Below the pieces are notes generated by a model. That model was given only the letters and a program-made list of their open reading frames with translations, was not told where the DNA came from and ran no database searches. From NCBI GenBank assembly GCA_027484055.1, contig JAIXQH010000010.1:62001-126000 (forward strand): a DNA stretch of 64,000 nt. The letters are read 5' to 3'. Source of the stretch: Verrucomicrobiaceae bacterium (GTDB taxonomy: Bacteria; Verrucomicrobiota; Verrucomicrobiia; Verrucomicrobiales; Akkermansiaceae). How positions within the stretch are numbered: the first letter of the stretch is position 1; each line of letters opens with the position of its first letter. Positions 10,608 to 51,626 of the stretch are shown here, in pieces. The translations under genes were made by a program, and so were the position numbers.

Positions 10608-10617
10608 GTCCCCCGAA

Positions 10618-28127: not shown

Positions 28128-29426
28128 CTAAGCGAAGGGATCTGGCTTAGGTACCGGGCAGCCAGCGAGTGTCCAATGGTAAATCTGAACCAGTTGGCGA
28201 GCTTTCGCCTGCCAGGTGTAGTGGTCGCGGACGTAGCGTTGGGCCAGCAATCCGGTTTGGTGGACTTTCTCTGGATCGGCAGCAGCTTGGCTCAGGGCTT
28301 GGTGAAATGAGGCGATGATTTGCTCACGGGTGCCGATGGGGACGATGGTGCCGCCGCCGTCTGGGATGAGTTCGGCAGGGCCGCCGTAGTCGAGCACGAT
28401 GGGGGCCAAGCCGAGGGCCATGGCTTCCAAGACGACGCCGCCGCCGAATTCACGGACGCTGGGAAAAGCGAAGACCTGAGCGGTGCTGAGGTGACCACGG
28501 ACCTTTTCATGGGCGACCCAGCCGGCGAAGCTGACGCTGTCCTGAATCTTCTCCTTGGCGACGAGTTCTTTAAGCGCAGGGAGTTGTGGGCCGTCGCCGA
28601 TGATTTCTAGGGTGATGGTCCCGCTCCGCAGCAGGGGGGCGGCGGCTTCGATGAGCATGTCGGCACCTTTGTATGGAACGAGACGGCCGAGGAAGGCGAT
28701 GCGGAGTGGTTTACCTGGGCTGGGAGGCGAGGGGGGCTGGTCGATTTCAGGAAAACGCGCGGGATCGATGGCGTTTTCTGGAAGCCAGACGGATTTGAGG
28801 TCGAGCGCCTTCTCGTTGCCGCTGACTTCATGGTAGGTGTGGCGCGAGGCGAGAATGAGGGTCGAGGCGAGCTCACGAGTGGCGTGCAGGCCGGGAAGGA
28901 GGCGGTGAAGATCTCGGAAGTATCCGAGCCACTCGCGCTCCGCGAGACGGACGCTATCAAAACCAGCGGGCCAGGGGATACCTCCATTGATGGGGCCTAA
29001 GAGGAGAGGGATGCCGATCTTTGAAAGTCGCTTCGCCAAGTAGCTGGGTGTGGTGGGGCTGAGCGGGGTGATGCGGTGAACGAGGTCGTAATCTCCATTT
29101 TTCAGAGCCTTACCGAACTGAAGCCAGATTTTCCGTTCGAAGAGGGGGTAGGCGAGGGTGGTCAGCGCGGAATGAATGGTCCATCCAAGACTGGTGCCAC
29201 CACGAAGAAGGGTGGCGATGCGGAAGGCGATGCGCTGGGCGGGATTGGTAACAGCGGTGAAGGTGTCTGGTGAAACCCCGAATTTGAGAAGTGATGATTC
29301 GTTTCGGCTCTCAGTGATCAGGTGGGCGTCGCAGACTTGGGCGAGAGCTTGGCTCAGTGAGTAGCCGATGAGGGCGACACTGGTGAGCTCAGGATTGGCC
29401 GCTTCTGCAATCACGAGAACCCGCAA
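28128..29426 (-). CDS. Family 4 glycosyltransferase
   Basis: A GT-B glycosyltransferase of about 432 residues. The C-terminal lobe has IAFLGRLVPYKGADMLIEA, LEIIGDGPQLPALKEL and the EX7E-type PSVREFGGGVVLEAMALGLA that holds the nucleotide sugar. It likely adds a sugar to an envelope polysaccharide, given the downstream export genes. The start is uncertain: recognisable homology begins at RVLVIAEAANPE, and no ATG lies between it and the upstream Hpt gene, so I mark a TTG at 29426. An ATG at 29594 would overlap the Hpt gene by ~89 bases. Last gene of the exosortase-kinase run. Confidence 0.85.
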   Translation of the reverse strand: MRVLVIAEAANPELTSVALIGYSLSQALAQVCDAHLITESRNESSLLKFGVSPDTFTAVTNPAQRIAFRIATLLRGGTSLGWTIHSALTTLAYPLFERKIWLQFGKALKNGDYDLVHRITPLSPTTPSYLAKRLSKIGIPLLLGPINGGIPWPAGFDSVRLAEREWLGYFRDLHRLLPGLHATRELASTLILASRHTYHEVSGNEKALDLKSVWLPENAIDPARFPEIDQPPSPPSPGKPLRIAFLGRLVPYKGADMLIEAAAPLLRSGTITLEIIGDGPQLPALKELVAKEKIQDSVSFAGWVAHEKVRGHLSTAQVFAFPSVREFGGGVVLEAMALGLAPIVLDYGGPAELIPDGGGTIVPIGTREQIIASFHQALSQAAADPEKVHQTGLLAQRYVRDHYTWQAKARQLVQIYHWTLAGCPVPKPDPFA

Positions 29427-29505
29427 GGGTCTCTGTGGGGAAGCGGCTGGAGTGGTGACTGGAGAGCTGATGAGCGTGGAGACTTGGATTAACGATTGCT
29501 GAAGG

Positions 29506-29889
29506 CTAGTGGGCCGGGGCGAAATTGGGCACGGATTTCTCCCAACTCCGGATGGCGGCGAGGCTTTGATCCCAGAGGGATTGAAGCTCGCCATGGATGG
29601 CTGCGGCTTGGGGGGGGGTGAGGGATGCGCTTTCCTCAAGCACTTTGAGGCGGGCGGTCATGGCGATGCAGCCGAAGTAGGAGAGCATGCCACGCAGCGA
29701 GTGAGAGCGGGCGCGGAGATCGACTAAATTCCCCTGCTGAATGGCAGCTTGGATTGAGACGAGGTGGCTGGCGACGTCTTGAATCACGTCACCGAGCAGG
29801 TCGATGTAGTCGGTGTAACCGATGGTGATGAACGAGTTGAGCTGACTGATGTCGAGCAAGGATTCTGAGCTTGGGCGGGAGGTGTCCAT
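29506..29889 (-). CDS. Histidine phosphotransfer (Hpt) domain protein
   Basis: A 127-residue single Hpt domain, all helical, with the phospho-accepting histidine in LRARSHSLRGMLSYFGC. It is 16 bases downstream of the hybrid histidine kinase gene, which has two receiver domains but no Hpt domain of its own, so the two very likely form one phosphorelay. No output response regulator is seen nearby. Confidence 0.9.
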   Translation of the reverse strand: MDTSRPSSESLLDISQLNSFITIGYTDYIDLLGDVIQDVASHLVSIQAAIQQGNLVDLRARSHSLRGMLSYFGCIAMTARLKVLEESASLTPPQAAAIHGELQSLWDQSLAAIRSWEKSVPNFAPAH

Positions 29890-29905
29890 GGCGGGGAGTG
29901 TGGTC

Positions 29906-32900
29906 TTAGGAATGGTTTGCTGTCTGGCGGGAGATAAAGGATGAGATCATGTCGCGGAGGTGGTTCAGGGTAATCGGCTTAGAAAGGTAGGCGTCCATGC
30001 CGGCTGAGGTGGCGGAGTCTCGATCTTCTTGGAAGGCGTTGGCGGTGAGGGCGACGATGAAAGGTCTTTTTCTGAGATGAGGCAGGGCACGGATGGTGCG
30101 GCTGGCTTCTAGGCCATCCATGACCGGCATTTGGATGTCGAGGAAAATAACGTCATAGGCAGAAGCGGCAACTGCATTTACAGCTTCTTGGCCATTTGCG
30201 ACGATGAAAGGCTCGATGCCGAGGCGGCGGAGCAGGAGACGGATGACTTTTTGATTGTTCGGGTTGTCTTCCGCGACGAGGACTTTCAGCTCGGTGAGTC
30301 GGGCGGATTCGATTTCGTCCGTGGGCGGGGTGATTTTCGTGGTCTCGACCACGGTTCCGGGGAATAGCCGGGTGAGGATGCTCTGAATGGCAGAGGGCCA
30401 GATGGGCTTAGAGCCGACTTCATCGAAGAGGGCGCGGGTCTCATTGGAGTAGTTGGCTTCCGAGCTGAGGAGGCTGAAGCGGGTGTTGGCCGCAAGCGGC
30501 AGTGCGCGCAGATGTTTCGTGAGCTCGATGCCGTCCATGTCGGGCATGTGCTGGTCCACGATGACGAGATCGTAGGGGCCTGATTGATCCCAGAGTTGGA
30601 GCGCTTGAGCGCCGCTTTCTGCGGTTTGGCAAGAGAGTCCCCAACTGGCGAGCATTTCTTCGAGAATGCGGCGGTTCATGGGGTTGTCATCGACCACGAG
30701 GATTTTGAGCTGGAGGCCAGCGGGAAAATTCGCGGTGGGTGAGATGGCGACTGGGGATGTGCTTGAGGGGCTGACGAATATTTCGGCAAGGAACGTAGAG
30801 CCTTTACCGAGTTGACTCTTGATGGTGATGTCGCCGCCCATGAGTTCGGCGAGGCGTTTGCTGATGGCCAGTCCGAGGCCCGAGCCGCCGAAGCGGCGGG
30901 TGGTGGAGGAGTCTTGTTGGACGAATGCGTTGAAGAGGCGCTTGATGGTGCTGGGGTCGATGCCGATGCCCGAGTCATTAACCTCGAAGGTGATGTGCCA
31001 CTGGCCAGCCGAGTTTAGTTTTCCATCGACGATAAGGCTGACAAAGCCGGCGGGGGTAAATTTGACGGCGTTGCTGAGGAGATTGACGAGGATTTGACGG
31101 ATGCGGGCACGGTCGCCGACGACTTGGGCGGGGAGGTGTGGGGCGAGTCGGGCGATGAGTTCGATGTGTTTTCCCATGGCACCGAGGCGCACGACATCGA
31201 AGGCTTCACGGCAGAGATCGGGGAGGTGGAAGGGGGATGAATCTAGGTCGATATTTCCGCTCTCGATGCGGGAGTAGTCGAGGATGTCATTGATGAGTTC
31301 GAGCAGGAAGTTGCTCGAATTGAGGATGGTCTCGGCGTAGTCCTTTTGTTGGATGTTGAGGTTGGTCGTTTCGAGAAGGGAAGCCATGCCGATGACCGCG
31401 TTGAGCGGGGTGCGGATTTCATGGCTCATGGTGGCGAGGAAGGTGCTTTTCGCGCGGTTCGCCTTTTCCGCGACGATGGCGGCATTATGGGATTCGTCGC
31501 GCGCGAGGATGAGGGCGTCAGACTCGTTTTGGGCGACTTGGCGCAGGCCGAAGTTCGCAGCGGCGGAGCGGAGGATGGAGATTTCCCAAGGCTGCCAGAT
31601 GCGGTCTTCGAGGTAAGCATCGAGCCCAAGGAAGCCCCAGAGGCGATTCGCGGCAAAGATGGGAACGATGACCAGTGAACGGACGCCGCGGGGTTTTAGG
31701 ATTTGTTGTTCGGACTCGGGAAGGAACTCGACGACGCCGCTGATTTCATGGCCGGCGAGAAGTTCGTTAAACCAGCGTCCTAGACCGGATTCATGGAAAG
31801 GGAGGTTTTGGGCATTGGGCTGCGAGAGTCTCTGATCGGCAGGGTTGGCGGTCCACTCGGCGATTTGGCTCATGCAGGGGGTGCTGAGGATCGGATGTTG
31901 GTGGACTTGGAAAATATAGGAGCGGTCCACATTCGCGGCACGGCCGAGTGAGGCGAGAATTTCAGACCAGAGCGCCGGTCCGATGCGTTTGGAGAGCAGC
32001 GTGGTGCTGATGGAAGCGACGGCTTCGAGCAGGTTACTCGAGCGTCGGGTCTGGGTGGTGTCACGCTGGACGGCCATGAAGCCGGTGAGTGTGCCGTATT
32101 TATCGGTGAGCGGTTGGCACTCGATATGGACGAGGTAGCGCCGACCATTTTTGGCGATATTGACGATTTCCGCTTCAAATCCCAATCCGCGTTGGATGCG
32201 CTCACGAATGTGGGCACGTTGTTCTAGGTTATCGCCTGGCCGTTGGAGGAAATTACCGGGGATTTTTCCAATGACTTCGTCCTTGGTGTAACCACTCATT
32301 TTGGTGAAGCCTTCGTTGACCCACTCGATGTGGCCGACGCTATCCGTGATGACGACGGCATTGTCCGTGCGCTTGGCGACGAGAGCGAGGCGGTTCGCCT
32401 CAGCGCGGCTGCGGATCAGGTCCAGCTCTGCTTCTTTGGAGGCAGTGAGATCCACGATTGAAAGGATGGACCCGGTGTTTTTGGGGGAGTCCGAGAGGGG
32501 TGCACGGAAGACTTGAACGGGGATTAATTTGCGGTCTGGCCGCGTGAGGATGGACTCGAAGCCGATGTTTGGGTCTAGCGAATGACTTGGATGGGCGATG
32601 AGGGCTGAGAGTGGCTGTCCTACGAGATTTTCGGGTTTGTAGTGAGAAAGATTTACGAAGGCTGGGTTGGCGTAGGTGATGAGTCCTTCGCTGGTGATCA
32701 CGGCTAGGCCGTTCGGCACGGATTCCATCACGTGTTGTGCGAACTGGCGCTGCTTGTCGGTTTCGAGACGCGTGCGGTGGCGATCGTCGATGTTGAGGAT
32801 CGTGCCCACGAGGCGGGTGGGTTCATTTGACTGAGGCTTCACGATTTTCCCCCGGAGCATGAACCACAACCACTGGCCATTGGCAGAGCGAAGACGGATT

Positions 32901-34477
32901 TCATACTCTGAGAATGCATCATGTCCGAGCGTGGTAGAACGGATGAGAGGGACCAATTGGGGGCGATCCTCGGGATGGACGAGTTTCCAAACTTTACGAA
33001 ATGAAGGGGAGCGCTTGCCAGTTTGCCAGCCCAGTACGGCGGAGATCCGCTCGCCAATGTTGATTTTAAAGGGCTTGGGGAAGCATTCCCAAGTATCGAG
33101 GTCGGCGGCGGTCATGGCGTCTGTCAAACGCTCGGACAGGCTTTCGAGATGACGTGCGGTCTCCACCGCTGCCAGATGAAAGGCAAACAATGCGATCAAT
33201 AGGAGCGCAACTGACATGACGACGACCATTGAGGCGAGGCGCCGTCCTGCGAGTGATTGTAGCCAAACCTTGGCCGGGTAATCGACCGCTAGGAGTGAAA
33301 TGACCTGTTGATTTCCATCAAAAATCGGGACGACGGCACTGAACCAAACGCCCCATTCGTCTGCGTAAGGCCCCAGAAATGAAGGGCGGCCTGCGAGTGC
33401 AGGTAGCCATTTTTCTGGCTGGGCCTTTACGGGTGATCCGGGCGGGGAGAATGTTTTTGTTTGGGTGGGCTCTTCGGCATCGACCAAGAAAACGAGCTCG
33501 CCGTTGCGCTTGCCTAGGAGGTAGGTGAAGCGACATCCAGGTAATGCTTTGTGAATGTCGAGCAACTTGGAGCGGACGTAGTTGTAGTTGGGAGTTTGAA
33601 CTTCCTCAGGCAAGCCTCGAACTTTACCGATTTGGTAGGTATCTAGATTATCCGCACCCAGTTGAAGGGCGCTGAGTAAGGTGGTCGTTTGCCTGTTTTG
33701 TGCTTGGTTGCCCAGCCAGTGAGTCAGCGCTGCACCGTTGAGAATGGTAAAAAATGCAGCGGTAAGGACGACGCTGGTTCCGATTCGCCTCCTTCTCCGG
33801 AGCGCGGGTGAAAATTCCGAACGGTGTGCTTGGTAAATGACGGACCACAGCCGGAAACAGAAAATGAAACTACAAAAAGCAGCTGTCGCTAGCGCGATTA
33901 AGGCGATGGTCCGCTCTGTGGAATTGGCTTGGCCTCCTGCATCATAAGCAATGGCCACCGCCTGCGGGTAGAGGCAGACGGCGGTGATGATGGTGAGAAG
34001 GGCCGCAGAACACATCCGCGAGAGGGTGGGAAAATTCCCGAGGTTCGCTGGGAATAACCTCCGGCTGAATCGATCCACTCGCCAGCCGGTGGCAAATGAG
34101 ACGACTAAAATCGGAATGATGAAAAAGGGTGAGCTGAGGCTGATTTGGCTGGCCCAGAGGGCAAAGCCGAAGAGGGCGAGGATCGAGATCCATTTGATCA
34201 AGAACGGAGCCTTTTGACCCTGCATCAATGGCGAGAGGAAGAACCCAAATAGTGCAGCGACAAACACCGAGCCAAGAACGGCGCTGACCAAGCGGTCGGC
34301 TTCTCCTAGGTCGAAGGCAAACGCCACGAGGCTAAACCAGATTTTTAAACACAGACTAACGAGTGCGAACGAAAAGAGCGCCCAGCGTGAGAGGCTTTTG
34401 TCCTCTTGATACAAGAAGAAACAAGCCACTCCCGAGGCAATAAGGAATAGTCCGGTTAAAAATATGAGATAATCCAT
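29906..34477 (-). CDS. Hybrid sensor histidine kinase, multi-PAS, GAF, two receivers
   Basis: A 1523-residue protein. Order: five to seven transmembrane helices (1-240); an extracytoplasmic sensor (~250-425) ending in a TM helix near 430; PAS (~450-560), PAS (~580-690) and PAS (~705-830); GAF (~835-1000). Then HisKA with MSHEIRTPLNAVIGM (His ~1018), HATPase with VNDSGIGIDP and RRFGGSGLGLAISKRLAELM, receiver 1 with VIVDQHMPDMDG (Asp ~1307) and receiver 2 with VIFLDIQMPVMDG (Asp ~1446) plus the C-terminal lysine in YLSKPI. Receiver 1 has a weaker C-terminal half (SKPIWPSAI). Lies between the exosortase genes and an Hpt gene; a role in controlling envelope polysaccharide or sorting is inferred from position. 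Confidence 0.92.
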   Translation of the reverse strand: MDYLIFLTGLFLIASGVACFFLYQEDKSLSRWALFSFALVSLCLKIWFSLVAFAFDLGEADRLVSAVLGSVFVAALFGFFLSPLMQGQKAPFLIKWISILALFGFALWASQISLSSPFFIIPILVVSFATGWRVDRFSRRLFPANLGNFPTLSRMCSAALLTIITAVCLYPQAVAIAYDAGGQANSTERTIALIALATAAFCSFIFCFRLWSVIYQAHRSEFSPALRRRRRIGTSVVLTAAFFTILNGAALTHWLGNQAQNRQTTTLLSALQLGADNLDTYQIGKVRGLPEEVQTPNYNYVRSKLLDIHKALPGCRFTYLLGKRNGELVFLVDAEEPTQTKTFSPPGSPVKAQPEKWLPALAGRPSFLGPYADEWGVWFSAVVPIFDGNQQVISLLAVDYPAKVWLQSLAGRRLASMVVVMSVALLLIALFAFHLAAVETARHLESLSERLTDAMTAADLDTWECFPKPFKINIGERISAVLGWQTGKRSPSFRKVWKLVHPEDRPQLVPLIRSTTLGHDAFSEYEIRLRSANGQWLWFMLRGKIVKPQSNEPTRLVGTILNIDDRHRTRLETDKQRQFAQHVMESVPNGLAVITSEGLITYANPAFVNLSHYKPENLVGQPLSALIAHPSHSLDPNIGFESILTRPDRKLIPVQVFRAPLSDSPKNTGSILSIVDLTASKEAELDLIRSRAEANRLALVAKRTDNAVVITDSVGHIEWVNEGFTKMSGYTKDEVIGKIPGNFLQRPGDNLEQRAHIRERIQRGLGFEAEIVNIAKNGRRYLVHIECQPLTDKYGTLTGFMAVQRDTTQTRRSSNLLEAVASISTTLLSKRIGPALWSEILASLGRAANVDRSYIFQVHQHPILSTPCMSQIAEWTANPADQRLSQPNAQNLPFHESGLGRWFNELLAGHEISGVVEFLPESEQQILKPRGVRSLVIVPIFAANRLWGFLGLDAYLEDRIWQPWEISILRSAAANFGLRQVAQNESDALILARDESHNAAIVAEKANRAKSTFLATMSHEIRTPLNAVIGMASLLETTNLNIQQKDYAETILNSSNFLLELINDILDYSRIESGNIDLDSSPFHLPDLCREAFDVVRLGAMGKHIELIARLAPHLPAQVVGDRARIRQILVNLLSNAVKFTPAGFVSLIVDGKLNSAGQWHITFEVNDSGIGIDPSTIKRLFNAFVQQDSSTTRRFGGSGLGLAISKRLAELMGGDITIKSQLGKGSTFLAEIFVSPSSTSPVAISPTANFPAGLQLKILVVDDNPMNRRILEEMLASWGLSCQTAESGAQALQLWDQSGPYDLVIVDQHMPDMDGIELTKHLRALPLAANTRFSLLSSEANYSNETRALFDEVGSKPIWPSAIQSILTRLFPGTVVETTKITPPTDEIESARLTELKVLVAEDNPNNQKVIRLLLRRLGIEPFIVANGQEAVNAVAASAYDVIFLDIQMPVMDGLEASRTIRALPHLRKRPFIVALTANAFQEDRDSATSAGMDAYLSKPITLNHLRDMISSFISRQTANHS

Positions 34478-34508
34478 AAATGAGTGGCGAACTAAACGTG
34501 CAGCGGGT

Positions 34509-35093
34509 TCATCGGAAGCCTAAAGCAGGCAGTAGAATTTGGCGAACTCGATTCCAGTCAATGGGCTCATCAGAAATCCGCCGAAGCGTCACCAAAACTG
34601 GCTCTGCGCCACTCTTCCCAAGCGTGACACGTCGCGAACTGGTCGCCAACCAATATTCAATGGGGGAGGTGAATTGATGGTCGCCATCGTCAAAGAACCA
34701 GAGCGCCTCGCTGCGTTGGCTACCCCTTACCAAGGACACCCAGTTCGCTTCCCCGGAACTCAGCTTGACCGAATCTTTCGTTTGAATGCTCCAGCCAGCG
34801 CCGGAGAAGCAGTAACTCGGATCATGGACGGCGTGACGATTTTTAGTCCCATCCACCACCGTGAGCATCAGCTGGCCACCACCGCGGATGGCGATCAGGT
34901 ACTGCACGGCGCGGGCGTTTCCTAGAAATGCTTGATCGTCTGCGGAAAGTTGTATGGGTTGAGATTCGAAGTCGTGTCCGGACTTAGGAATCGCCCCAAG
35001 ACGGCCCTCTGCCGAGGGCATTGGAATCAGCGGCCAGACGATGGTAACAATGACCGCGAGCACAAGGGCACACCAGAGTAAGATTCGTTTCAT
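34509..35093 (-). CDS. EpsI-like exosortase-associated protein (DUF3485)
   Basis: A 194-residue protein with one N-terminal transmembrane helix and a periplasmic domain. The segment HAVHDPSYCFSGAGWSI matches the conserved H-x-P-x-x-CF-x-x-x-GW motif of EpsI/DUF3485 proteins that accompany exosortases in polysaccharide loci. Five bases after the preceding membrane-protein gene and 32 bases before the histidine kinase gene. Exact activity is unknown for the family. Confidence 0.82.
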   Translation of the reverse strand: MKRILLWCALVLAVIVTIVWPLIPMPSAEGRLGAIPKSGHDFESQPIQLSADDQAFLGNARAVQYLIAIRGGGQLMLTVVDGTKNRHAVHDPSYCFSGAGWSIQTKDSVKLSSGEANWVSLVRGSQRSEALWFFDDGDHQFTSPIEYWLATSSRRVTLGKSGAEPVLVTLRRISDEPIDWNRVRQILLPALGFR

Positions 35094-35097
35094 GGGT

Positions 35098-35607
35098 TTA
35101 CAGGGTGGAAATAGGGCGTTTTGCGATCGATAGGGTGAGCATGACGAGAGCGATGGAGAAGAGACTCGCGGCCACTGGCCGCTCCCATCCCATAATTCCG
35201 CCTGTTTTGAAATGACTCAGAAACCAGCCAGAGGCGGGTAACCACGAGGCGGCCCCGATGAGTGCTAGGATGCCTGTGTAACGCAATCCACAGAACCCAG
35301 GGATGGCCGCAGCAAGTGAAAGGTGATAGAGAATGCGGAAATCACTCATGGATCCCAGCACGCAGAATAACAGAGCAAGGGCGATCCAGAAATGGCAATG
35401 CGGCTTGGACGGCGAGCGCAGCCATCCAAAAAAATAGACCTGTGGTGCTAACCAGATCAGGAAGGCAAGGGGCAGCCCCCGCGCATAGAGATCATTTCCA
35501 GAAGCAGCGATGAGTGTCGGAACAGCAAGCCAAGCGACCAGACATACCGTCGCTAAAGGTAAAAGAATGCTGGAACGCTCAGTGGCGGGGACAGGCGGTG
35601 GACTCAT
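35098..35607 (-). CDS. Exosortase-locus membrane protein
   Basis: A 169-residue protein with about five transmembrane helices and no recognised motif. It overlaps the exosortase stop by four bases (ATGA) and is five bases from the EpsI-like gene, so it belongs to the same operon. It may be an accessory membrane subunit of the sorting system; this is inferred from context only. Confidence 0.65.
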   Translation of the reverse strand: MSPPPVPATERSSILLPLATVCLVAWLAVPTLIAASGNDLYARGLPLAFLIWLAPQVYFFGWLRSPSKPHCHFWIALALLFCVLGSMSDFRILYHLSLAAAIPGFCGLRYTGILALIGAASWLPASGWFLSHFKTGGIMGWERPVAASLFSIALVMLTLSIAKRPISTL

Positions 35608-36428
35608 GATGATTTAACAGTTTGGGATAAAATCGTAGGCGAAGGAACTAATAAAAAGCAGAGCGCCTTGGTGATGACCAAGACGATCGCCAAGACGGCC
35701 AATCCGGTAAGTCCGTGCAGCGAGCCGCTGGCGAGCTCCACGTCGAAGGAAAGTGCGATACCGGATAAAACGAGGATTCTCAAAAAATTCGCAACCCACG
35801 CCACGGCTGGCAAGCAGGCGAGTAATAAGATGAAACGGCGTTTCGAAGGGATTTCATAGGCACCAATCGCGACCCCCGTCAGCAGCGTGAGCTGTAGTAG
35901 ATTCCAGCCAGCGCAGGCCGCTTCAATCTCGATCGGGATGCCTAAGACCTTGAGATTGGTGGCGTCGCGAGTCGTCGTGATCTGCAGAAAGTTAAAGCAA
36001 TGCTCGACGACGAATGCCGAAGAAAGTCTGAACGCATAGCCGATTTGATCCCACTCCAGCACGAGCCAAGGAAATGAAAGTAATAGCAACCAGCCGAGAC
36101 GATTGCGGCGGAGTTGAGGGGTGAAACAGCAGGTGCCCCAAATCATGACCAACGACGTGAATGAAAAGGACAATAGAGTGATGCTACCGATCATCCAAGC
36201 GGCCAAGAAACCGATGAGACTCAGCCCGAGAATGAGTTTCTGTTTCTGTGAGACTTGCGCCGGTCTTGGCTGCCATGGAAGGCCTAACGCAAAGGCGATG
36301 GGTATCCCAAGAGCTAAGGGCAGAGTGTCCGCAAGGGTGAGCGTCCAGCGAAGATCTCTGGCCCAAATCGCCACAGCGCCGAGCGCCAAGACGAGTCCAT
36401 AAAGCCAACGCTGCTGGGCGGAATTCAT
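35604..36428 (-). CDS. Exosortase (transpeptidase-like membrane protease)
   Basis: A 274-residue protein with about eight transmembrane helices. The three catalytic residues of exosortases are visible: Cys in IEAACAGWNLLQLTLL (~172), Arg in NFLRILVLSG (~216) and His in SGSLHGLTG (~235). Exosortases cleave C-terminal PEP-CTERM-like signals and attach the proteins to envelope material, usually with linked polysaccharide genes as here. The start at MNSAQQRWLY overlaps the TPR gene stop by four bases; a longer frame of 31 residues exists but lies inside that gene. The subtype cannot be told, and I see no protein in this window with a clear cognate sorting tail. Confidence 0.88.
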   Translation of the reverse strand: MNSAQQRWLYGLVLALGAVAIWARDLRWTLTLADTLPLALGIPIAFALGLPWQPRPAQVSQKQKLILGLSLIGFLAAWMIGSITLLSFSFTSLVMIWGTCCFTPQLRRNRLGWLLLLSFPWLVLEWDQIGYAFRLSSAFVVEHCFNFLQITTTRDATNLKVLGIPIEIEAACAGWNLLQLTLLTGVAIGAYEIPSKRRFILLLACLPAVAWVANFLRILVLSGIALSFDVELASGSLHGLTGLAVLAIVLVITKALCFLLVPSPTILSQTVKSS

Positions 36429-38386
36429 GGCTTTTTGAGCTTCTTCGCTTCTTCGATCTTGAGGATATTTTTTCGGAAATCTGGCTGATCCGGGAAGCGA
36501 CGCGCTAGAATCCCAGTCCACTTCAGAGCTTGATCGTAGTCGCCGAGGGAGTAGGCCTCCTTCGACATGAAAATCATCCCGTCGGCTGATAAGTCTCCAA
36601 GTTCTTGGTAGATTCTCAGCGTCTCAGCACGCGAGCCTTCGGCGAGGGCGATGCGGGCAAGAATTTCTTTTCCCGATGTGGTGGCGGTGAGTGCAGGCAC
36701 CTTCAGCAAAACCTCTCGGGCTTTCGCGGGCTGGCCGCGGTCGAGTTCGGTTAGTGCTAGTGTCCATGCAGCACGCGAGGCGAGCTCTGAATTTTCCGAG
36801 GCGATTTTGTTGAGTATTTCTAGCCCTTGGTCAGTGGCACCGGATGTGAGTAGGATTTCTCCCAAAAATAATTCGGAAGCGGGACTGCGTTTGGAAAGCG
36901 ACTGCAACCATTGTTTGGCTGGGACTTTCCCATCCCGGAGTTGAAGCGACTTGGCATAGCCATAATCGAACCATGCCGGCGGATTCGTCACTGCGAGCTT
37001 GTCGCCCCCGCCGATGATGACTGCGGCGCCCGACCAGCTCGAAGAAAAGAGAATGGAAACCAATGCTTCCGGTTGGGCTAACCAGGTTTCAAAAAGCTGG
37101 TTTTCTTCAGGACTGAGAGAGCGGTTTGCCCATTTGGCATATTCAAAAACGAAAGGATGCGCGTCCTTGTCTGTGATGGGTAGGTCCCGTCCTGCGAGAC
37201 TCAGGCGGGGGTCGATGTTTTCTCGTGCATTGAGGTGAGAGAGGATTTTGAGGGCAAGTCCGGGATTCAGATCATCTGCTTCTTTGTTGAAACCGGTTTC
37301 AATTTTTTTTCTAGCACCCGCGAAGTCCTTGCTCCGAAGACTTTCGAGCAGTCGCATCCAGGTGACTTCCGGGCGATTGGTCCCACCGCGAATGCCGGAA
37401 ATGGCTCCGTCGAGCGAGGCATTCCAAAACACACCATCCGGAAGTTTGCTGACGGCAGAGACCCATTCGCGCCAGCCTTCTTGGCGACACGGTGGCAGCG
37501 GCTTGCTCAAGCGGTGTCCTGAAACGCTAGACCAGAACCAACTTTTCAGTGCGTAAACGCCTAGGCTGGTGTCTTCCGCTGCGTCACGCCAGGTTTCTGC
37601 GGCGGCTGAGATATCTTCGGTGCGGAGGTAGAAATTCGCTAGAATATCGCGGTAGAGAGGGTTCGTGCGCTCGCACAGTACGGCTGCCACGTAGTCGAGC
37701 CTCGCATTCGCTATGCGGCCTGCGGATTCTTGGATTTGGGCGCGGAAGGCTAAGATGTCGGCATTGCGCGGGTCGGATTTTAAGCCTTGATCCAGACTCG
37801 CCATGGCTTTCCAAGGTTCCTTCGCTTCTAGGAGTGCGATGCGGATGTAGCGCTGGGCATCGTCAGTTCCAGTCAGGGTCGCGGATCTGAGGAGAGTGAG
37901 TGCTTCCTCGGGTAATTTTCTCGCAAGCAGGGCATCGGCCTGAAGCAGCAGCCACTGGCCTGGGAATGCGGCCTTATCTTTCCACTTTAAGGGGAAGGCG
38001 TCGTAAGCGCTGAGGTCTCTTCTTTGGAGGGCGTCGCGTGCGAGTTTTAAGTCTGCGGATTCGAGTAGGTGCGGGTCTAAGGTCGCAGCTTGGGGATCAC
38101 TTAAGGCCATGCGGATCACGCTGGTGTCACGGATGGAGATGGCTTTTTCCAGCTCTGCGACGCGCACACTTTTTTCTTTCTCAGCGCGCAAGGTGGGATC
38201 GTAAATGCCTGATAATGCAGACCTTGCGGCAACGAAGTCGCCAGCTGCTAGGCCCATTTCGATTGCAGCGGTGGATTGCTTGCTGCGCTTCGTTAACACG
38301 GATTGTCTCCAGAACCAGAAGCCGAGGGCTAGACCCCCAATTACTAGGGGTGTAACAATGAAAATGATTCGGAGCTTTCTAGTCAC
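36425..38386 (-). CDS. TPR-type protein of the exosortase locus
   Basis: A 653-residue protein: one N-terminal membrane anchor (residues 6-27) followed by a helical solenoid with TPR-like units (for example EEALTLLRSATLTGTDDAQR; KAMASLDQGLKSDPRNADIL). It faces the periplasm. TPR proteins are common partners of exosortase/EPS loci. First gene of the operon TPR-exosortase-membrane protein-EpsI. The 177 bases upstream (38387-38563) separate it from a divergent polymerase gene and hold the likely promoters; no clear -10/-35 pair was picked out. Confidence 0.75.
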   Translation of the reverse strand: MTRKLRIIFIVTPLVIGGLALGFWFWRQSVLTKRSKQSTAAIEMGLAAGDFVAARSALSGIYDPTLRAEKEKSVRVAELEKAISIRDTSVIRMALSDPQAATLDPHLLESADLKLARDALQRRDLSAYDAFPLKWKDKAAFPGQWLLLQADALLARKLPEEALTLLRSATLTGTDDAQRYIRIALLEAKEPWKAMASLDQGLKSDPRNADILAFRAQIQESAGRIANARLDYVAAVLCERTNPLYRDILANFYLRTEDISAAAETWRDAAEDTSLGVYALKSWFWSSVSGHRLSKPLPPCRQEGWREWVSAVSKLPDGVFWNASLDGAISGIRGGTNRPEVTWMRLLESLRSKDFAGARKKIETGFNKEADDLNPGLALKILSHLNARENIDPRLSLAGRDLPITDKDAHPFVFEYAKWANRSLSPEENQLFETWLAQPEALVSILFSSSWSGAAVIIGGGDKLAVTNPPAWFDYGYAKSLQLRDGKVPAKQWLQSLSKRSPASELFLGEILLTSGATDQGLEILNKIASENSELASRAAWTLALTELDRGQPAKAREVLLKVPALTATTSGKEILARIALAEGSRAETLRIYQELGDLSADGMIFMSKEAYSLGDYDQALKWTGILARRFPDQPDFRKNILKIEEAKKLKKP

Positions 38387-38563
38387 CTCGATACTTTAGC
38401 TATGTTGACTATGCGAGTCTACCAAAATATTCAGGGGCTCAGGATGCGGCGGAAATTGGAGGGATCCGTGAATGAGAGGAGGTGAAATTTAACAATTCGT
38501 GCGTTTTTGGAGAACAGGCTGGCAAGTTGGGATTGAAGGTGTCTTGGTCTTTCAAGATCTCAA

Positions 38564-39949
38564 ATGGATATTGCGAAGACGATTTTAAAGGTTCTGGTGA
38601 TCGCCTTTGTGTATCTCGGAATCGCGCCCCTGCTGGGTTACTATTTGAACGGTAAGGACTTCGCGAGGCGCGTGACGCTCGGTTTCATGGCGTGGTGGTT
38701 GGTGCGTCCGCCTTCGGATTTCACGCTGATGCTTTACTCGATTGAAAAATTTCGAGGGCACGCGAGAGGGTTTGAGTTCAATTATATTGAGGCGATAGCA
38801 ATCGGCTTGGCACTGGCAGCTCTCTTGGAAAAACGGAAAGACTTCCGGTTTCTTCCTCCTGGGCTGTGGGTTTGGTTTTTATTCATCGGCGTGGGGCTGC
38901 TGTCTGTTCCTGGAGCGATTAATCCGCTCTATGCCTTAATGCCGGCTTTCAAGTTTGCGAAAATGGGTTTTGTGTTTGTGGGTTTGTTTTCTGCGATCCA
39001 TGACGAAAGAGATCTCAAGGCAATTATGCGCGGGTTCGCGATTGCGCTCATCGTACAGGTCATCTACTGCTTATGGGGCAGGTATGTCGTGGGTGGGTTC
39101 CGAGTGTTGGGGTGGTTTGAGCACCCGAATCCTATGGCGATGTGGTCCTACATGGTGGCTTTCCCGATTTTGGGACTCGCAATTTCAAAGGAGACCTCGC
39201 AGCGGGACATGCTGTTGTTTTTCGCCGCCTTCGGATCGGCTGGGTTGGTGGTCGTTCTATCGGTTTCGCGAGCCTCACTAGCGGCTTTCGGGGTGGGGGC
39301 CATGCTGGTCATGTTTGGGTCATTTGTGCAGGGGTTTACCGTGAGAAGGGTTATCTTAGGGATCTTCGCCGCAGTAGGGGGAGCGGTGGTGTTAGCCGTC
39401 GCCGCAGATACCTTCATGGCACGGATGGGTGGGGATGATTCCCCGAAGAATGATTTACGCTATGGGCTCAATCTCCAAGCGGCGGCAATGTGTCGTGACC
39501 ATCCTTTGGTAGGAATCGGCTGGAACAATTTTGGCTTGGCGAACAGTAGGCCGCTGGGCGAGAAGTATTCTAAAATTATTGAGAATTGGGAAGCCGCTAG
39601 AGGATCGAAAATTTATGCAAAAAACTTCATGGCAAATCCGCTCACGGAGAGCTTGTATTGGCTCATCTTAGCCGAAAATGGCAAGATCGCCTTCGGTGTT
39701 TTTTTTCTATTTGCCGGAACGACGATTTGGTTCGGCTTCCGCACGACAATTGCGTTTTGGAAAACGTCGTTGGGTCTTGCTTTACTGGGGGTGACTGTGG
39801 CGCTGGGGGTGACTTACGTCCACATGCAAGTCGAGCGGGTGCTGGTTCAGACGAAAAATCTGACCACATGGATCATGTTTTGCGCGATTCTTTCGCGAGC
39901 AGAATGGTGGCGGCGGGCCGAAAAAGCGAGGAAGCGTGAACTTCGCTAA
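38564..39949 (+). CDS. O-antigen ligase/polymerase-like membrane protein
   Basis: A 461-residue protein with ten to twelve transmembrane helices and the Wzy/WaaL-type layout: a conserved GWFEHPNPMAMW before mid-protein, SRASLAAFGVGAML, and a large loop with HPLVGIGWNNFGL near residues 315-330. These proteins polymerise or transfer lipid-linked polysaccharide at the outer face of the inner membrane. It is the only plus-strand gene of the cluster, diverging from the exosortase operon and converging on the SLBB export genes. Confidence 0.85.
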   Translation: MDIAKTILKVLVIAFVYLGIAPLLGYYLNGKDFARRVTLGFMAWWLVRPPSDFTLMLYSIEKFRGHARGFEFNYIEAIAIGLALAALLEKRKDFRFLPPGLWVWFLFIGVGLLSVPGAINPLYALMPAFKFAKMGFVFVGLFSAIHDERDLKAIMRGFAIALIVQVIYCLWGRYVVGGFRVLGWFEHPNPMAMWSYMVAFPILGLAISKETSQRDMLLFFAAFGSAGLVVVLSVSRASLAAFGVGAMLVMFGSFVQGFTVRRVILGIFAAVGGAVVLAVAADTFMARMGGDDSPKNDLRYGLNLQAAAMCRDHPLVGIGWNNFGLANSRPLGEKYSKIIENWEAARGSKIYAKNFMANPLTESLYWLILAENGKIAFGVFFLFAGTTIWFGFRTTIAFWKTSLGLALLGVTVALGVTYVHMQVERVLVQTKNLTTWIMFCAILSRAEWWRRAEKARKRELR

Positions 39950-39956: not shown

Positions 39957-41036
39957 CTAGGGGGCAGTAGTTAGAGGGATCGTGATGACTGGTGCCTGAT
40001 TGTTGCCACCTAGGCGGGAACCTTCAGTCGCTGCGACGCTGCGTGCGGCGTCGGTGAAGATGGTTTTCACGGTGCTCTCAAGTAAACCGAGTGGGCGATT
40101 GGGAATCCAGACGATGTCACCGGGTTGGAGAAGGACATTGGTTTCTTTCCCGATGAGGATGGATTTTAAATTAACGATTGAGGCACTCGGTTTATCCAAG
40201 GTGCCACGAACGATGACGACTTGATCCAGATAAGCATTTTTAGCTGGGCCTCGACCCTGGGCGATGCAGTCAATGAGTGTGAGTGAATCTTTGTAACCGA
40301 CCGCTTGTGGGGCTGCGACCGCACCGAGTAGCAGCACGTTAAAGGAAGTGGAGGAGGGGAGATAGATGAGGTCGTTGTTCCTAAGATAAATATTCTGGGT
40401 CGTATCGCCCCCACGAATGAGTCGGTCGAAGTTGATGGGTAGGATGTCACCGTCGCGGATCACGACGCTATTTGATAGGTCGGCAAGTTCTTGGGTGGTG
40501 CCGGACATGCGTGAAGTGAAGAGTCCACCTGATTCAGAGATGGCTTCGAGAAGAGTGGTGGGCTGGCGAAGAGGAAAGATGCCCGGTTTGAACACTCGGC
40601 CTAGGATCCAGTAGCGGCGTGAACGCACTTCGACGAGGCTTACATTGACCAAGGGGTTCGTGTAGTCGGGCTTCAGTGCTTCGGTTAGTTTTTTAACAAA
40701 CTCGGCTTGCATCAGTCCTTCAGCGCGGACGCCTCCAGCGAGGTTGTAATAGACCATCCCGTCGGGCATTACGAAGGTGCGGGCAAGTGTGCCGGGCACC
40801 TCTGCGATTTCTATTTCGATCACGTCTCCTGGCCCAAGTATGTAGGGCTCTGACGGTGGAATGAGGAGCTGAGGATTTAACTCACGCTTGATGGTGACAT
40901 TCTTAAAGTTGAGATTCTTGACCGTCTGATCCGTCGTCCGTGCGTCAAACTCGGCCTTTGGGATCCACTGTTGGCACGAACTTGTGACGAGCACTAGAAG
41001 TGTCGTAACAAGTGGATATGGAATTTTACGAAACAT
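39957..41036 (-). CDS. Polysaccharide export lipoprotein (Wza-like, SLBB)
   Basis: A 359-residue protein with a lipoprotein signal (lipobox region VLVTSSCQQW). The polysaccharide export domain begins with LGPGDVIEIEIAEVPGTL and contains SGGLFTSRMSGTTQ in an SLBB unit; a second soluble ligand-binding beta-grasp unit follows (YLPSSTSFNVLLLGAVAAPQ). Likely an outer-membrane export channel. It shares one base with the preceding, related export gene; two paralogues in tandem may form a mixed or two-part channel. Confidence 0.88.
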   Translation of the reverse strand: MFRKIPYPLVTTLLVLVTSSCQQWIPKAEFDARTTDQTVKNLNFKNVTIKRELNPQLLIPPSEPYILGPGDVIEIEIAEVPGTLARTFVMPDGMVYYNLAGGVRAEGLMQAEFVKKLTEALKPDYTNPLVNVSLVEVRSRRYWILGRVFKPGIFPLRQPTTLLEAISESGGLFTSRMSGTTQELADLSNSVVIRDGDILPINFDRLIRGGDTTQNIYLRNNDLIYLPSSTSFNVLLLGAVAAPQAVGYKDSLTLIDCIAQGRGPAKNAYLDQVVIVRGTLDKPSASIVNLKSILIGKETNVLLQPGDIVWIPNRPLGLLESTVKTIFTDAARSVAATEGSRLGGNNQAPVITIPLTTAP

Positions 41037-42049
41037 CAGGGTGGGTTAATGAAGGGGCCGACGTTCTGGCTTACCCAGCTTGCGGTGGCGCTTGTGACGA
41101 AGGCTGACAGAGCAATCTTTGTAATCTCTTGAACTTCTGACCACGGGGTATCTGCAACAAAGACGATGTCTTTTGGCTGGAGTTTGAAGTCGTTTTCTTT
41201 AGCCGCGAGGATTTCTTTTACGTTAACTATGAACGTTTCGGGCTTGCTGACGCTGCCTCGGATGACGAGCACGCGGTCTTTCCATGCGCGTTCCGAGAAG
41301 CCGCCCCGACGAGTGATCGCGGAGACGACCGATGAATCAGGGCTCAGACCTTGGACTCCTGGGTTGGCCACGGAACCAAGGACGTAGTAGTCGTTGCTGA
41401 TATTTGAGGCGATGTAGATGAAGTCATTTGGCTCGATTTCGATATTCTGAGACATATCTCCGTCGTTTAGAAGCCGCCTAAAATCGACCGTGAGGCGCTT
41501 GCCATTTCGTGTGATGAAGGAGCGATCTAAATCGGCAAGTTCGACGGTATTTGACTCGAAAAGACCTGTTTCTAAGCCACCGGCATTCGCGACAGCTTCG
41601 ACGAGTGTGATGGGGCGTTCCAAAGTAACCACGCCGCGGATGACGACTTTACCGAGGATGGTAAATCGCTTGGAGGCGACTTCTTGTGGTGTGATGATGA
41701 CTCTAGGTGAGCGGAAATGACTGCTGAGTGCCTTCTCAAGCACAAGGCGGGCTTCGTCGAGAGTCAGGCCGGTGAGTTTGATATTCTGAGCTTGAAGGAA
41801 ACTAACGGTGCCATCCGGTGAGATTCGGAAATAGGTGCGATCCAGCTCTGGGCGTCCGAAAAGAGAAAAATTAACCACATCTCCAGGTCCTAGCTCGTAG
41901 CGGTTGCGCCATGAGACGGGAGCAGTTGGGCCTTTGTTGCCGGTGACGATCTCGCTTGGGGGAGGGGACTGTTTGGATGTTTGCTCTTGTCCGTCAAGCG
42001 GGAGCCAGAGGGTGAGGTGAAGAAATAGAAGGTAGCAGATGCGTTTCAT
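41036..42049 (-). CDS. Polysaccharide export protein, second SLBB paralogue
   Basis: A 337-residue protein with a cleavable signal peptide (MKRICYLLFLHLTLWLPLDG) but no clear lipobox. It carries the same export domain (ELGPGDVVNFSLFGRPELDR) and SLBB units (VEAVANAGGLETGL; YIASNISNDYYVLGSVANPG). Sits between the Wzz-like gene (12 bases upstream) and the lipoprotein paralogue. Together they form the export part of the EPS cluster. Confidence 0.87.
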   Translation of the reverse strand: MKRICYLLFLHLTLWLPLDGQEQTSKQSPPPSEIVTGNKGPTAPVSWRNRYELGPGDVVNFSLFGRPELDRTYFRISPDGTVSFLQAQNIKLTGLTLDEARLVLEKALSSHFRSPRVIITPQEVASKRFTILGKVVIRGVVTLERPITLVEAVANAGGLETGLFESNTVELADLDRSFITRNGKRLTVDFRRLLNDGDMSQNIEIEPNDFIYIASNISNDYYVLGSVANPGVQGLSPDSSVVSAITRRGGFSERAWKDRVLVIRGSVSKPETFIVNVKEILAAKENDFKLQPKDIVFVADTPWSEVQEITKIALSAFVTSATASWVSQNVGPFINPP

Positions 42050-42061: not shown

Positions 42062-43948
42062 TCAAGAAAAGTGCTTGGTGAGAAAATGCGATACAACATC
42101 GGCAGATTTTCTGATTTGGCCTTCGGCGCTCTCCATCCAAGCGATGGTTCCTGCACAGGCCGGGAGGTAGGCCGCTGTGATGGTTCGGGATTTGGCGGCG
42201 AGCGTTATGGATTTTTTAGTTCCAGAGACGACGGCGATCCACTGGTTCGTGCTGGCGAGTAGATCGCGCGCAGGGCCTTGTGGAAGACCAGATGCGCGAA
42301 TGACGCCGCTTGCTGCGAGTTCAGTCTGCCATTCGAGGCTGTTCGCTTGGCTGGAGTCATTCCAGAGTTGATCGGGGGTTAGATCGTGGACGGTGAACCG
42401 GTTCCCACTATCTGCCATAGCGGCGTCGCTGAGAAGGGTCCAGAATTGGCGTTCGTTTTCTGGCTCAAGAGCCGAGGTCCAGAATAGAATTTTTTCAGAA
42501 GTGCGGAGCCTTGGTGCGAGGTATGTGATCCAGAAGTGCTCGGTGGCTTGCTGCGCGGCGAGGCCTGAGCTTGCGGGTATGGCGGTGATCAGCGGAGCTG
42601 TGGTTGCGATGCAGCATTCGAGAGTGGAGCGTCGCTGACTCCGGTGACTGAGTAGTAGAGTCAGGATGGTTGTGATTCCTCCACCCATTAGTGCGCCTGC
42701 GACACCACAGATGGCAGGTTTTGATACTAGGGAAGAGGGAGTGATGCTTCGGATATCGGGTGCTTGGAAAACTTGCCAATAACCAGGAGCGCCTGAAGCG
42801 AAAATTTCTGCTTCCTTCAAGCGGTTGGTCATCATGGATAATCCTTCGCTAATGGCGTTTCGCTTAGTTTTTAGAGCCTCATAGGCACCGATGATTCCAG
42901 GAAACTCGCTGATGCGCGCAGTGGTGCTAGTCCTGAGTTTTTCGAGTGAAGCAATTTGGCTGTTGGCTTCAAAAAGCTGATCTTGAAGCGCCAAGATATT
43001 CAGAAAAATCTGATTTCCAAGTGGGGTGCCGGTGTAAGAATCCAAATTGGTTTCTTCTTGTTTCCGAGCAGCGAGTAAATCCACCTGTTTGCTGAGATAC
43101 TCGATGCTCTGGAGCTTGGTCTGGACGAGTGGATTCGCGTCGGTGTAGGTGGCCCTTAAATTGGCGAGTTCTTCGTTGGCTGTTTTTAACTGAAGCTCGA
43201 TGGGGCTTTGGCGTTGGATCTGTGACGTTAGGCTCTTTAATTGACTGCTTTTGGAGGCTGCGGTGGCGCGTGCTGTCTCAAGTTGAAGCTCAATGAGGGA
43301 CAGTTTTGAAAGTGCCGCGGAAACCTGAGACTCACCGCCGAAGTAGTCCTTTTCTTTCGAGAAATTGAGGATCTCCGTATTGGTCGCGCTGGTTTGATTC
43401 TCCAGTTCGGTGACCTCTTTTTGTAAGATCAGCCTCACTCCGTGCGCTTCCGTGCGTTGCAATTGCTGAGTGTAAGATTCGATCTCTTCTGCCCAAATGC
43501 CACTGAATCGAACCGCGTCCTCCGGACTGATGGGTGAGTGATAGGTGATGTAGAAAATGTCAGTACCTTCTAACTGAGTGGCCTGCACGAGTGATTTCGC
43601 CCTATTTGGATCAATCCCGTTTTGAGCCCGCTTCATGGCCTTATCGAGAGGCTCGGAGGCGAGTAAAGTTGCGAGAAGCGTCGCGTCATTCAGATCGACC
43701 GGACGGTAAGCCTGCCCCACATCCGAGGCTTGGACGGTCTGTGGCACGCGCCGCTTGATCAATGAGACGGTGACAGAAAAACTCTGGTGGGTGATCTTGA
43801 TTCCAAATAGGACTCCAATGCTTCCCAATAACAAGACGCCAGCTAGGATCCATGGCCAGCGAGATAGAACTCCTCCGAGCAGCCTGACGGGATCGAAGGG
43901 AATGGGAAAACGAAACTTGGCACGCCCCAGAGCTGCTGCAGCGCTCAT
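42062..43948 (-). CDS. Wzz/GumC chain-length protein with degenerate BY-kinase-like domain
   Basis: A 628-residue protein. Two transmembrane helices (residues ~32-55 and ~415-440) flank a long periplasmic coiled coil, typical of polysaccharide co-polymerases. The cytoplasmic end (~440-628) lines up with bacterial tyrosine kinases, but where Walker A should be it reads ILFWTSALEPENERQFW, without GK[S/T]. No Walker A' or terminal tyrosine cluster is visible. I infer a non-catalytic pseudokinase domain. First gene of a three-gene minus-strand operon with the two export proteins. Confidence 0.82.
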   Translation of the reverse strand: MSAAAALGRAKFRFPIPFDPVRLLGGVLSRWPWILAGVLLLGSIGVLFGIKITHQSFSVTVSLIKRRVPQTVQASDVGQAYRPVDLNDATLLATLLASEPLDKAMKRAQNGIDPNRAKSLVQATQLEGTDIFYITYHSPISPEDAVRFSGIWAEEIESYTQQLQRTEAHGVRLILQKEVTELENQTSATNTEILNFSKEKDYFGGESQVSAALSKLSLIELQLETARATAASKSSQLKSLTSQIQRQSPIELQLKTANEELANLRATYTDANPLVQTKLQSIEYLSKQVDLLAARKQEETNLDSYTGTPLGNQIFLNILALQDQLFEANSQIASLEKLRTSTTARISEFPGIIGAYEALKTKRNAISEGLSMMTNRLKEAEIFASGAPGYWQVFQAPDIRSITPSSLVSKPAICGVAGALMGGGITTILTLLLSHRSQRRSTLECCIATTAPLITAIPASSGLAAQQATEHFWITYLAPRLRTSEKILFWTSALEPENERQFWTLLSDAAMADSGNRFTVHDLTPDQLWNDSSQANSLEWQTELAASGVIRASGLPQGPARDLLASTNQWIAVVSGTKKSITLAAKSRTITAAYLPACAGTIAWMESAEGQIRKSADVVSHFLTKHFS

Positions 43949-51391: not shown

Positions 51392-51626
51392 TTCGAGAAC
51401 CCCCAAATATATTCCAAGTTTGTTCCTATTGCCATTTCCCATGGTGGCATCAAATACCGAATCGCCACCGCCCACCTCGTCGATTCCCGACCCCGACTCA
51501 TTACTCTGCAATTTCCGCAGCAGAAAAAACCACTCTCCCGCTATCCATTCGCTTTTCTCCAATTTTATCGCTTGATTGCACCCGCCACTATTTACCCACT
51601 TTCCATTAGCGCCATTCTTGATTGAT

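Follow-up and report, generated by a model that had tools for sequence, protein, structure and literature searches.

An exosortase operon of Verrucomicrobiota in an exopolysaccharide cluster and its candidate DUF4114 lectin-like cargo

A description of the PEP-CTERM/EpsH system appeared in 2006 (PMC1569441). According to the accessible parts of that source, the exosortase family has conserved Cys, Arg and His residues, and in proteobacteria PrsK and PrsR lie near EpsH in 3 of 13 cases and near exopolysaccharide (EPS) markers in 12 of 13. Excerpts of two other papers report that overexpression of the cargo raises the cell-bound polymer in Aquincola (PMC9850573), and that the targets of the exosortase XrtF are not yet known (PMC12188702). 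Similarly, the available text on PilY1.1 of Myxococcus xanthus proposes that its DUF4114 domain binds EPS with Ca2+ (PMC9109919), and that on LecB reports binding to the EPS Psl, with increased retention (PMC6522473). Here, we describe an exosortase operon in a stretch of 64,000 nucleotides (the window, C12:62001-126000) of the 4.4 Mb draft genome of a Verrucomicrobiaceae bacterium. We judge it quite probable that this operon represents an accessory exosortase system of Verrucomicrobiota, which sits in an EPS export cluster and is devoted to a DUF4114 lectin-like cargo, displaced in this genome, with a lineage-specific phosphorelay.

The exosortase operon and its cargo family

The operon encodes a tetratricopeptide repeat (TPR) protein, an exosortase (XRT), a small membrane protein and an EpsI-like protein, and is directly followed on the same strand by the genes of a hybrid histidine kinase, a histidine phosphotransfer (Hpt) protein and a GT4-family glycosyltransferase:

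36425..38386, minus strand: TPR protein with a hydrophobic N-terminal stretch, PrsT-like by position only (TPR Pfam matches; orthologs directly 5' of XRT in relatives)
35604..36428, minus strand: exosortase (XRT), 274 aa, with Cys172, Arg217 and His238 (PF09721; ATGA start overlap; residue conservation)
35098..35607, minus strand: small hydrophobic membrane protein, 169 aa (orthologs in relatives sit between XRT and the EpsI-like gene)
34509..35093, minus strand: EpsI-like protein, DUF3485-like below threshold (DUF3485 and TIGR02914 scores; fused to XRT in G582, G589 and G671)
29906..34477, minus strand: hybrid histidine kinase, 1523 residues (Pfam PAS, GAF, HisKA, HATPase_c and two receivers; hydrophobic N-terminal sensor region)
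29506..29889, minus strand: Hpt phosphotransfer protein (PF01627; homologous stretch within the kinase frame in G019, G046, G047 and G054)
28128..~29426 (start inferred from homology), minus strand: GT4 glycosyltransferase (PF00534, 101.5 bits; homolog in G006)

The XRT scores above the exosortase family cut-offs, with 63.1 bits against 25.7 for PF09721 (longer frame scored) and 38.1 against 23 for TIGR04178. Its residues Cys172, Arg217 and His238, which we take to be the conserved Cys, Arg and His of the family, are invariant in 16 of 16 aligned rows, our own included. Among the named NCBIfam exosortase types, it reaches the cut-off of none that it matched, the best being XrtA with 44.0 bits against 208, and it has 46.1 bits for the subfamily TIGR02602 (cut-off 105.55). 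The TPR protein likewise reaches 34.7 bits for PrsT (TIGR02917), under the cut-off of 312.2, and the NCBIfam cut-offs speak against a classical XrtA/PrsT system. The EpsI-like protein scores below threshold for both DUF3485 (23.3 bits against 26.1) and TIGR02914 (20.3 against 42.8), and was assigned on the basis of these scores together with synteny and the XRT-EpsI-like fusions in relatives. The Pfam scan gave no family for the 169-aa membrane protein, and searching the PDB with an exosortase profile brought no match up to E 0.01.

The exosortase search covered 99 genomes (our own and 98 relatives), 28 of which match at E ≤ 0.001. The 16 best matches, our own and those of 15 relatives, lie at E ≤ 1.4e-25; for comparison, we took the flanks in these relatives together with those of a partial match in G054. 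The matches include Luteolibacter pohnpeiensis KCTC 22041, a named strain with operon and cargo gene in place, as well as metagenome-assembled genomes of Akkermansiaceae and Verrucomicrobiaceae. The L. pohnpeiensis genome has two exosortases, a further cargo copy on a separate contig, and no kinase of the window type next to the operon. Judged by gene order, the cargo-less operon of the window is a peculiarity of our genome, since in 12 of the 15 relatives the gene directly 5' of the TPR gene, on the same strand, encodes a DUF4114 protein (hereafter the target) with a C-terminal tail of PEP motif, transmembrane (TM) stretch and basic end, for example APEPSLALGALMAGGALCGFGRRRRA. The exceptions are G029, in which the contig ends within the TPR gene, G049, with Hpt and kinase genes in the slot, and G062, which has no TPR gene.

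DUF4114 (PF13448, cut-off 27 bits) matches all ten aligned target rows at E ≤ 0.1, and the one row given in full scores 45.7 bits. The classical PEP-CTERM model PF07589 matches one of the ten at E ≤ 0.1, with 14.1 bits against 20.7, and none reaches its cut-off; TIGR02595 matches three of the ten at E ≤ 0.1, with a best E of 0.075. No NCBIfam model names these proteins, and the other NCBIfam matches (best E 0.0026, one row each) are weak and were attributed to chance or low complexity. The tails of the relatives and of our own genome nevertheless fit a wide PEP-CTERM-like pattern, composed of a PEP motif, a hydrophobic stretch and a basic C-terminal end. Signal peptides of the target proteins were judged by eye only.

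The earlier note on this DNA, made from the letters alone, had proposed a genome search for a sorting-tail family that co-occurs with the exosortase. Our search of the order covered 386 genomes, of which 22 have XRT (E ≤ 1e-12), 21 the target (E ≤ 1e-30) and 20 both together. At this target threshold, which was chosen after the list had been seen, the target is present in 20 of the 22 XRT genomes against 1 of the 364 others (Fisher p 3.6e-30). Because the target profile had been built from proteins adjoining XRT, we also ran the comparison without the nine sampled genomes that built it, which gave 11 of 13 against 1 of 364 (Fisher p 2e-18). At most five target candidates were scored per genome, so targets may be missed. 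At E ≤ 1e-12, the target profile matches 31 of the 386 genomes; ten of these matches are weaker than 1e-30, nine of which mostly represent the DUF4114 domain in frames of at least 696 aa. The only genome with the target at 1e-30 in the absence of XRT is G362, whose frame does not contain the PEP tail.

The order target-TPR-XRT is found in 16 of the 20 order genomes with both genes, in which target and XRT lie ~2.0 kb apart on one contig. The remaining four are our own genome, where they are unlinked, G049, with the target 11.6 kb from XRT and the TPR, Hpt and kinase genes among those between, and G029 and G352, where XRT and target lie on separate contigs with the TPR gene or a fragment of it beside the target. 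The target is absent in all seven searched congeners without this XRT type (G004, G009, G018, G030, G035, G036 and G038); G009, G018 and G038, the only three of them searched for such genes, possess other exosortases and classical PEP-CTERM matches. Across the phylum, ten of 387 sampled genomes have the target (E ≤ 1e-25), eight of them outside the order. Four of these eight (G427, G550, G589 and G673) have the order target, TPR, XRT, EpsI-like, with XRT and EpsI-like in one frame in G589, and in another two (G582 and G671) the XRT and EpsI-like genes are fused, the XRT scores are weaker, and two targets follow in tandem. In the latter two, which belong to another class (L175 and L177), three of the four tails read VPEPE and one lacks a PEP, and all ends have few basic residues.

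Our own genome has four tailed paralogs of the DUF4114 family on C51, C55, C47 and C61, which are 45-66% identical to each other and have open frames up to one common kind of tail. Three of the four pass the DUF4114 cut-off, and PF07589 matches one of the four at E ≤ 1, with 13.7 bits. We distinguish two tail classes in one cell, since VPEP or IPEP is found in 15 of 15 classical tails and APEPSLAxG in 4 of 4 special ones, and since a tail model built from relatives only gives the four targets 42.3-46.9 bits, compared to at most 21.8 for the 15 classical tails. The claims that no protein with a matching sorting tail is encoded in the window and that the targets lie elsewhere are both supported: three whole-genome searches (PF07589, target profile and tail model) gave no match inside the window, and the four paralogs with their common tail are on the contigs named above. 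PF07589 yielded 15 classical PEP-CTERM matches, one of which (L039) lies in a 34-aa open frame, and the target profile five matches in four genes. The tail model gave 11 matches at E ≤ 1, a search that is circular for the four targets, as they are rows of the model; the relatives-only model leaves them out. Two extra target paralogs of the same tail kind were seen in L143 (G019:C339:15001-27059) at 8890-11602; like those on C47 and C61, they lack the DxDxND Ca2+ loop described below.

The seven-gene run of the earlier note, from the TPR gene to the GT4 gene, was found in full at its places on the minus strand. Four-base overlaps join the TPR and XRT genes (ATGA at the TPR stop) and the XRT and membrane-protein genes, and a 4-base gap separates the latter from the EpsI-like gene. 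Of the gaps of 32, 16 and ~80 bases reported further downstream, the last two fit our reading and the first, between the EpsI-like and kinase genes, is 31 bases. The kinase/Hpt gap is 16 bases, and the Hpt/GT4 gap would be 79 bases with an in-frame TTG at 29426 as the GT4 start; homology to the GT4 of G006 starts at residue 69 of the open reading frame. The exosortase probably starts at 36428 rather than 36521. A promoter scan was uninformative (2 sites against 3.9 expected), and a terminator scan gave 20 sites against 10.8 expected, with no minus-strand site in the EpsI-like/kinase, kinase/Hpt or Hpt/GT4 gaps.

We place the run in an EPS cluster because of what lies upstream:

38387..38563, no strand: intergenic gap, in which the target (DUF4114/PEP-CTERM-like) gene of relatives is absent (comparison with relatives)
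38564..39949, plus strand: Wzy-like O-antigen ligase, inverted, occupying the target slot (PF04932, 33.5 bits against a cut-off of 31.7)
39957..41036, minus strand: Wza-type polysaccharide export protein 1 (PF02563 and SLBB)
41036..42049, minus strand: Wza-type polysaccharide export protein 2 (PF02563 and SLBB)
42062..43948, minus strand: polysaccharide chain-length determinant-like protein (TIGR03007, E 2.5e-11, 42.5 bits against 278.85; no Pfam family)

This layout suggests that the cargo gene has departed from the window operon and that the inverted wzy gene now fills its slot. In G006, G046 and G054, the stretch from the Wza gene to the TPR gene contains a uridine-kinase-like gene and the target; the former is a Pfam PRK match in G006 and G046 and was recognized by homology in G054. 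This PRK gene (L051 4668-5282, L055 9084-9881) is absent from that slot in the window. The wzy gene of G054 lies behind the kinase gene and convergent with it, and the wzy ortholog of G049 is 3' of the EpsI-like gene. In G054 (L064, G054:C378:14001-34000, 9395-10916), the target, TPR, XRT and EpsI-like genes are all in pieces, and the remnant operon keeps the adjacent kinase and EPS export genes; an assembly fault may lie behind the remnant, as this assembly has 12.6 Mb and is 6% contaminated. Elsewhere in the window, a KAP-family P-loop NTPase gene and, 8 bases on, a gene for a NACHT protein with leucine-rich repeats (56889-61519, plus strand) look like a defence-type pair, with PADLOC matches to PDC-S20, PifA and QatA-like proteins for the NTPase and a weak match only for the NACHT protein. 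An M12B reprolysin-like metalloprotease is encoded at 51576-53258 on the plus strand.

Association with the kinase, Hpt and GT4 genes

The Hpt protein matches PF01627 with 35.9 bits against a cut-off of 24.6 and contains the motif H-S-L-R-G. The sensor region of the kinase is 49-53% identical in G046, G047 and G054, and 35% in G049; PrsK (TIGR02916) is not among the best 25 of its 162 NCBIfam matches. A fold model of the sensor from three sequences (mean pLDDT 50.1, pTM 0.40) was not used. To follow the kinase, we compared 12 readable loci of the genus (our own, G002, G012, G019, G028, G029, G046, G047, G049, G051, G054 and G055). G006 was left out, as its contig ends within the EpsI-like gene; G051 is readable for ~1 kb past the EpsI-like gene, and contig ends truncate the kinases of G029 and G046. 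By raw count, which includes any chance adjacency of hybrid kinases, 8 of the 12 loci have a kinase of this kind next to the operon. It is always on the operon's strand, in two arrangements: directly 3' of the EpsI-like gene in seven (our own, G019, G029, G046, G047, G054 and, as a diverged kinase, G055), and, in G049, directly 5' of the TPR gene and accompanied by an Hpt of its own. In addition, the kinase frame itself contains an Hpt-like stretch in G019, G046, G047 and G054, and this fusion in four congeners argues that kinase and Hpt act together.

The strongest competing explanation is that kinase, Hpt and GT4 came to lie behind the sorting genes by chance and under no common regulation, the first two as a phosphorelay for general stress or the envelope, the third as a glycosyltransferase displaced from elsewhere among the EPS genes. 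We regard it as a serious contender, though we lean the other way. It would account for the absence of such a kinase beside the operon in G002, G012, G028 and G051, and in 17 more distant loci, several of which end at contig ends; the latter were searched for it at E ≤ 1e-4 (G062, G076, G082, G094, G122, G186, G206, G241, G352, G364 and G372) and at E ≤ 1e-10 (G427, G550, G582, G589, G671 and G673). It would also explain why G054 keeps the kinase beside mere remnants of the exosortase genes, and why the homolog of GT4 in G006, 74% identical over 432 residues, lies elsewhere in the EPS cluster, beside the chain-length gene. On the other hand, chance neighbourhood has to meet the recurrence of the kinase on both sides of the operon, always in its direction, and the same-strand gaps of 31 and 16 bases free of terminator-like sites. 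The adjacency in 8 of 12 loci together with the Hpt fusion in four favours a functional link.

A GT4 gene behind Hpt was not seen in the other loci examined. Assignment of this enzyme to the Myxococcus-type EpsH equivalog NF041879, which we take to be a Myxococcus protein model, was dropped at 440.2 bits against 800. The suggestion that signalling, sugar assembly and sorting are made as one unit thus stands in part: the recurrent, Hpt-fused kinase speaks for its signalling side, whereas the loci lacking the kinase, 4 within the genus and 17 beyond it, and an Hpt-GT4 pair found only here speak against the whole. As far as the compared loci tell, an old sorting operon has a younger, though recurrent, link to the kinase, and its link to the GT4 is seen only here. 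The hybrid kinase and Hpt probably form one phosphorelay tuning the envelope or EPS programme in part of the genus, and the kinase, Hpt and GT4 genes may be co-regulated with the sorting genes; the signal of the kinase and its control would be part of this picture.

Cargo function and competing explanations

We modelled the target with AlphaFold from 13 sequences (pLDDT 70.7, pTM 0.72). Foldseek with this model placed LecB/PA-IIL-type Ca2+ lectins at ranks 1, 2, 4 and 6 and Ca2+-bound thrombocorticin at rank 3, with a best E of 6.4e-3 and thus no match at E ≤ 0.001. In VIA-align, the top 16 rows are LecB-type lectins (13) and thrombocorticin (3), with Z scores of 6.2-7.8, all below 8 and in the range that the tool calls common for unrelated folds; the next row has 4.3. 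Moreover, 34 of 45 distinct target frames, a set that includes fragments such as the G054 remnant, contain a DxD[YFI]ND loop, which presumably corresponds to the Ca2+ loop of LecB. Altogether, the predicted model is suggestive of a LecB-type Ca2+-lectin fold. A PDB profile search with the target, extended to E 10, brought up only XRCC1 chains with E of 0.5 or worse, which were taken as chance.

We propose that the cargo is a secreted DUF4114 protein with a predicted LecB-type Ca2+-lectin fold and a C-terminal APEPSLAxG-TM-RRR tail. Sec would carry it out, and the tail would serve as its inner-membrane anchor. Helped by the EpsI-like and TPR proteins, the exosortase would then cut off the tail and hand the cargo to the surface, possibly together with the polysaccharide via the Wza exporters as its route through the outer membrane. 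There, the Ca2+-binding lectin-like domain would bind the cell's own EPS and fasten the matrix to the cell. In our genome, the cargo gene would have gone from the operon and be present as the four scattered paralogs.

Several findings weigh against this proposal, in addition to the low structural scores and to a PDB search in which no sequence matched the target at E 0.01. Exosortase activity and cargo cleavage are putative, being read from sequence, and the cargo genes of our genome are unlinked to the exosortase gene. The C47 paralog scores 16.6 bits for DUF4114, under the 27-bit cut-off, and both it and the C61 paralog lack the DxDxND loop. The exosortase tree groups the operon-type XRTs as one clade in only 21% of bootstraps, with an unstable place for the C62 exosortase, and the two further exosortases of our genome, on C48 and C62, could process the same tails. 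Co-occurrence is also imperfect: XRT occurs without the target in two genomes, namely G062, where the TPR gene is likewise missing from the locus, and G186, which is cut at the contig start. Conversely, G176 has a target-like match (4.8e-27, profile 86-276), which may be a real tailed relative, without XRT, and outside the order G669, with three tailed target copies, and G714 have no XRT in the stretches taken.

Some of these points lead to an alternative that we consider unlikely, in which the main exosortase (C48) processes the DUF4114 proteins, and the window exosortase has an unrecognised cargo or acts in polysaccharide assembly. With three exosortases in the genome and PEP in both tail classes, such sharing is conceivable; the best classical tail reaches the 21.8 bits given above with the special tail model, the tails of G582 and G671 are mostly VPEPE with less basic ends, and the tailed targets of G669 have no window-type exosortase beside them. 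However, the DUF4114 protein tightly co-occurs with and adjoins this very exosortase type, and it is missing from the seven congeners that lack the type, three of which have other exosortases and classical PEP-CTERM proteins at their disposal. Still less credible, and in our estimate very improbable, is a decaying orphan exosortase whose cargo gene is lost and whose four paralogs are relics: the empty operon, the loss of the Ca2+ loop in two of the four and the decay seen in G054, a sign that such decay can happen, fit it, but the four paralogs are open to a common kind of tail, the TAA flagged in two being the frame-end stop, and the XRT keeps its C, R and H and the overlaps with neighbour genes.

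Comparison with known systems

To our knowledge, only a few exosortases can be paired with a defined cargo of predicted function. The devoted exosortase system favoured here would join a distinct exosortase type to cargo of a single family, whose domain points to calcium-dependent EPS binding as its direct role. With two exosortase-tail pairs in one cell that can be told apart by sequence, tail specificity would in addition become directly testable. More tentatively, and with rather less confidence, the data may be extended to a phylum-wide exosortase subsystem for LecB-fold Ca2+ lectins acting as a cell-to-matrix clamp, with a private tail code orthogonal to general PEP-CTERM, and with hybrid-kinase/Hpt gating together with EPS export in Luteolibacter-like bacteria. 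Such a phylum-wide, one-cargo subsystem, if real, could perhaps be a hitherto undescribed one. In the open-licence literature, we found no exosortase paired with DUF4114 or a hybrid histidine kinase, weak evidence given that scope, and PEP-CTERM was not joined to lectin or LecB among the matches listed, which were LecB papers.

Four described systems come closest, compared here as far as the accessible text of each source goes. The PEP-CTERM/EpsH system with PrsK-PrsR-PrsT (Haft et al. 2006, PMC1569441) also has an exosortase among EPS genes, an EpsI-like partner, a TPR protein, a histidine kinase nearby and a PEP-TM-basic tail. It differs from the present locus, in which a single operon of the relatives is headed by one cargo family, and the TPR protein and exosortase fall far under the PrsT and XrtA cut-offs. 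Compared to PrsK-PrsR (PMC1569441), the window has a PAS/GAF hybrid kinase with Hpt, and no PrsR-type regulator among its scanned proteins. The cyanoexosortase B of Nostoc punctiforme (PMC12188702) serves many PEP-CTERM proteins with one exosortase, and the available text describes no lectin-like cargo at an operon head. Nevertheless, it resembles the present case in an EPS locus with a Wza-type exporter and in a model that ties the cargo to EPS-cell adhesion.

The floc-forming pepA-prsT locus of Aquincola (PMC9850573) has a TPR protein named as classical PrsT, RpoN1-dependent transcription of pepA, and PrsK/PrsR beside epsB2, and DUF4114 is unmentioned in the parts of the paper at hand. As in the operons of the relatives, its TPR gene, prsT, has a PEP-CTERM gene upstream. 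Finally, PilY1.1 of Myxococcus (PMC9109919, PMC13190605) is pilus-associated and LecB (PA-IIL) (PMC6522473) is a small lectin, neither being described with an exosortase tail in the accessible passages. Unlike the target in these respects, they resemble it, taken together, in a DUF4114 domain, a Ca2+-loop-like motif, a LecB-like fold that the model suggests for the target, and a proposed or reported binding of EPS.

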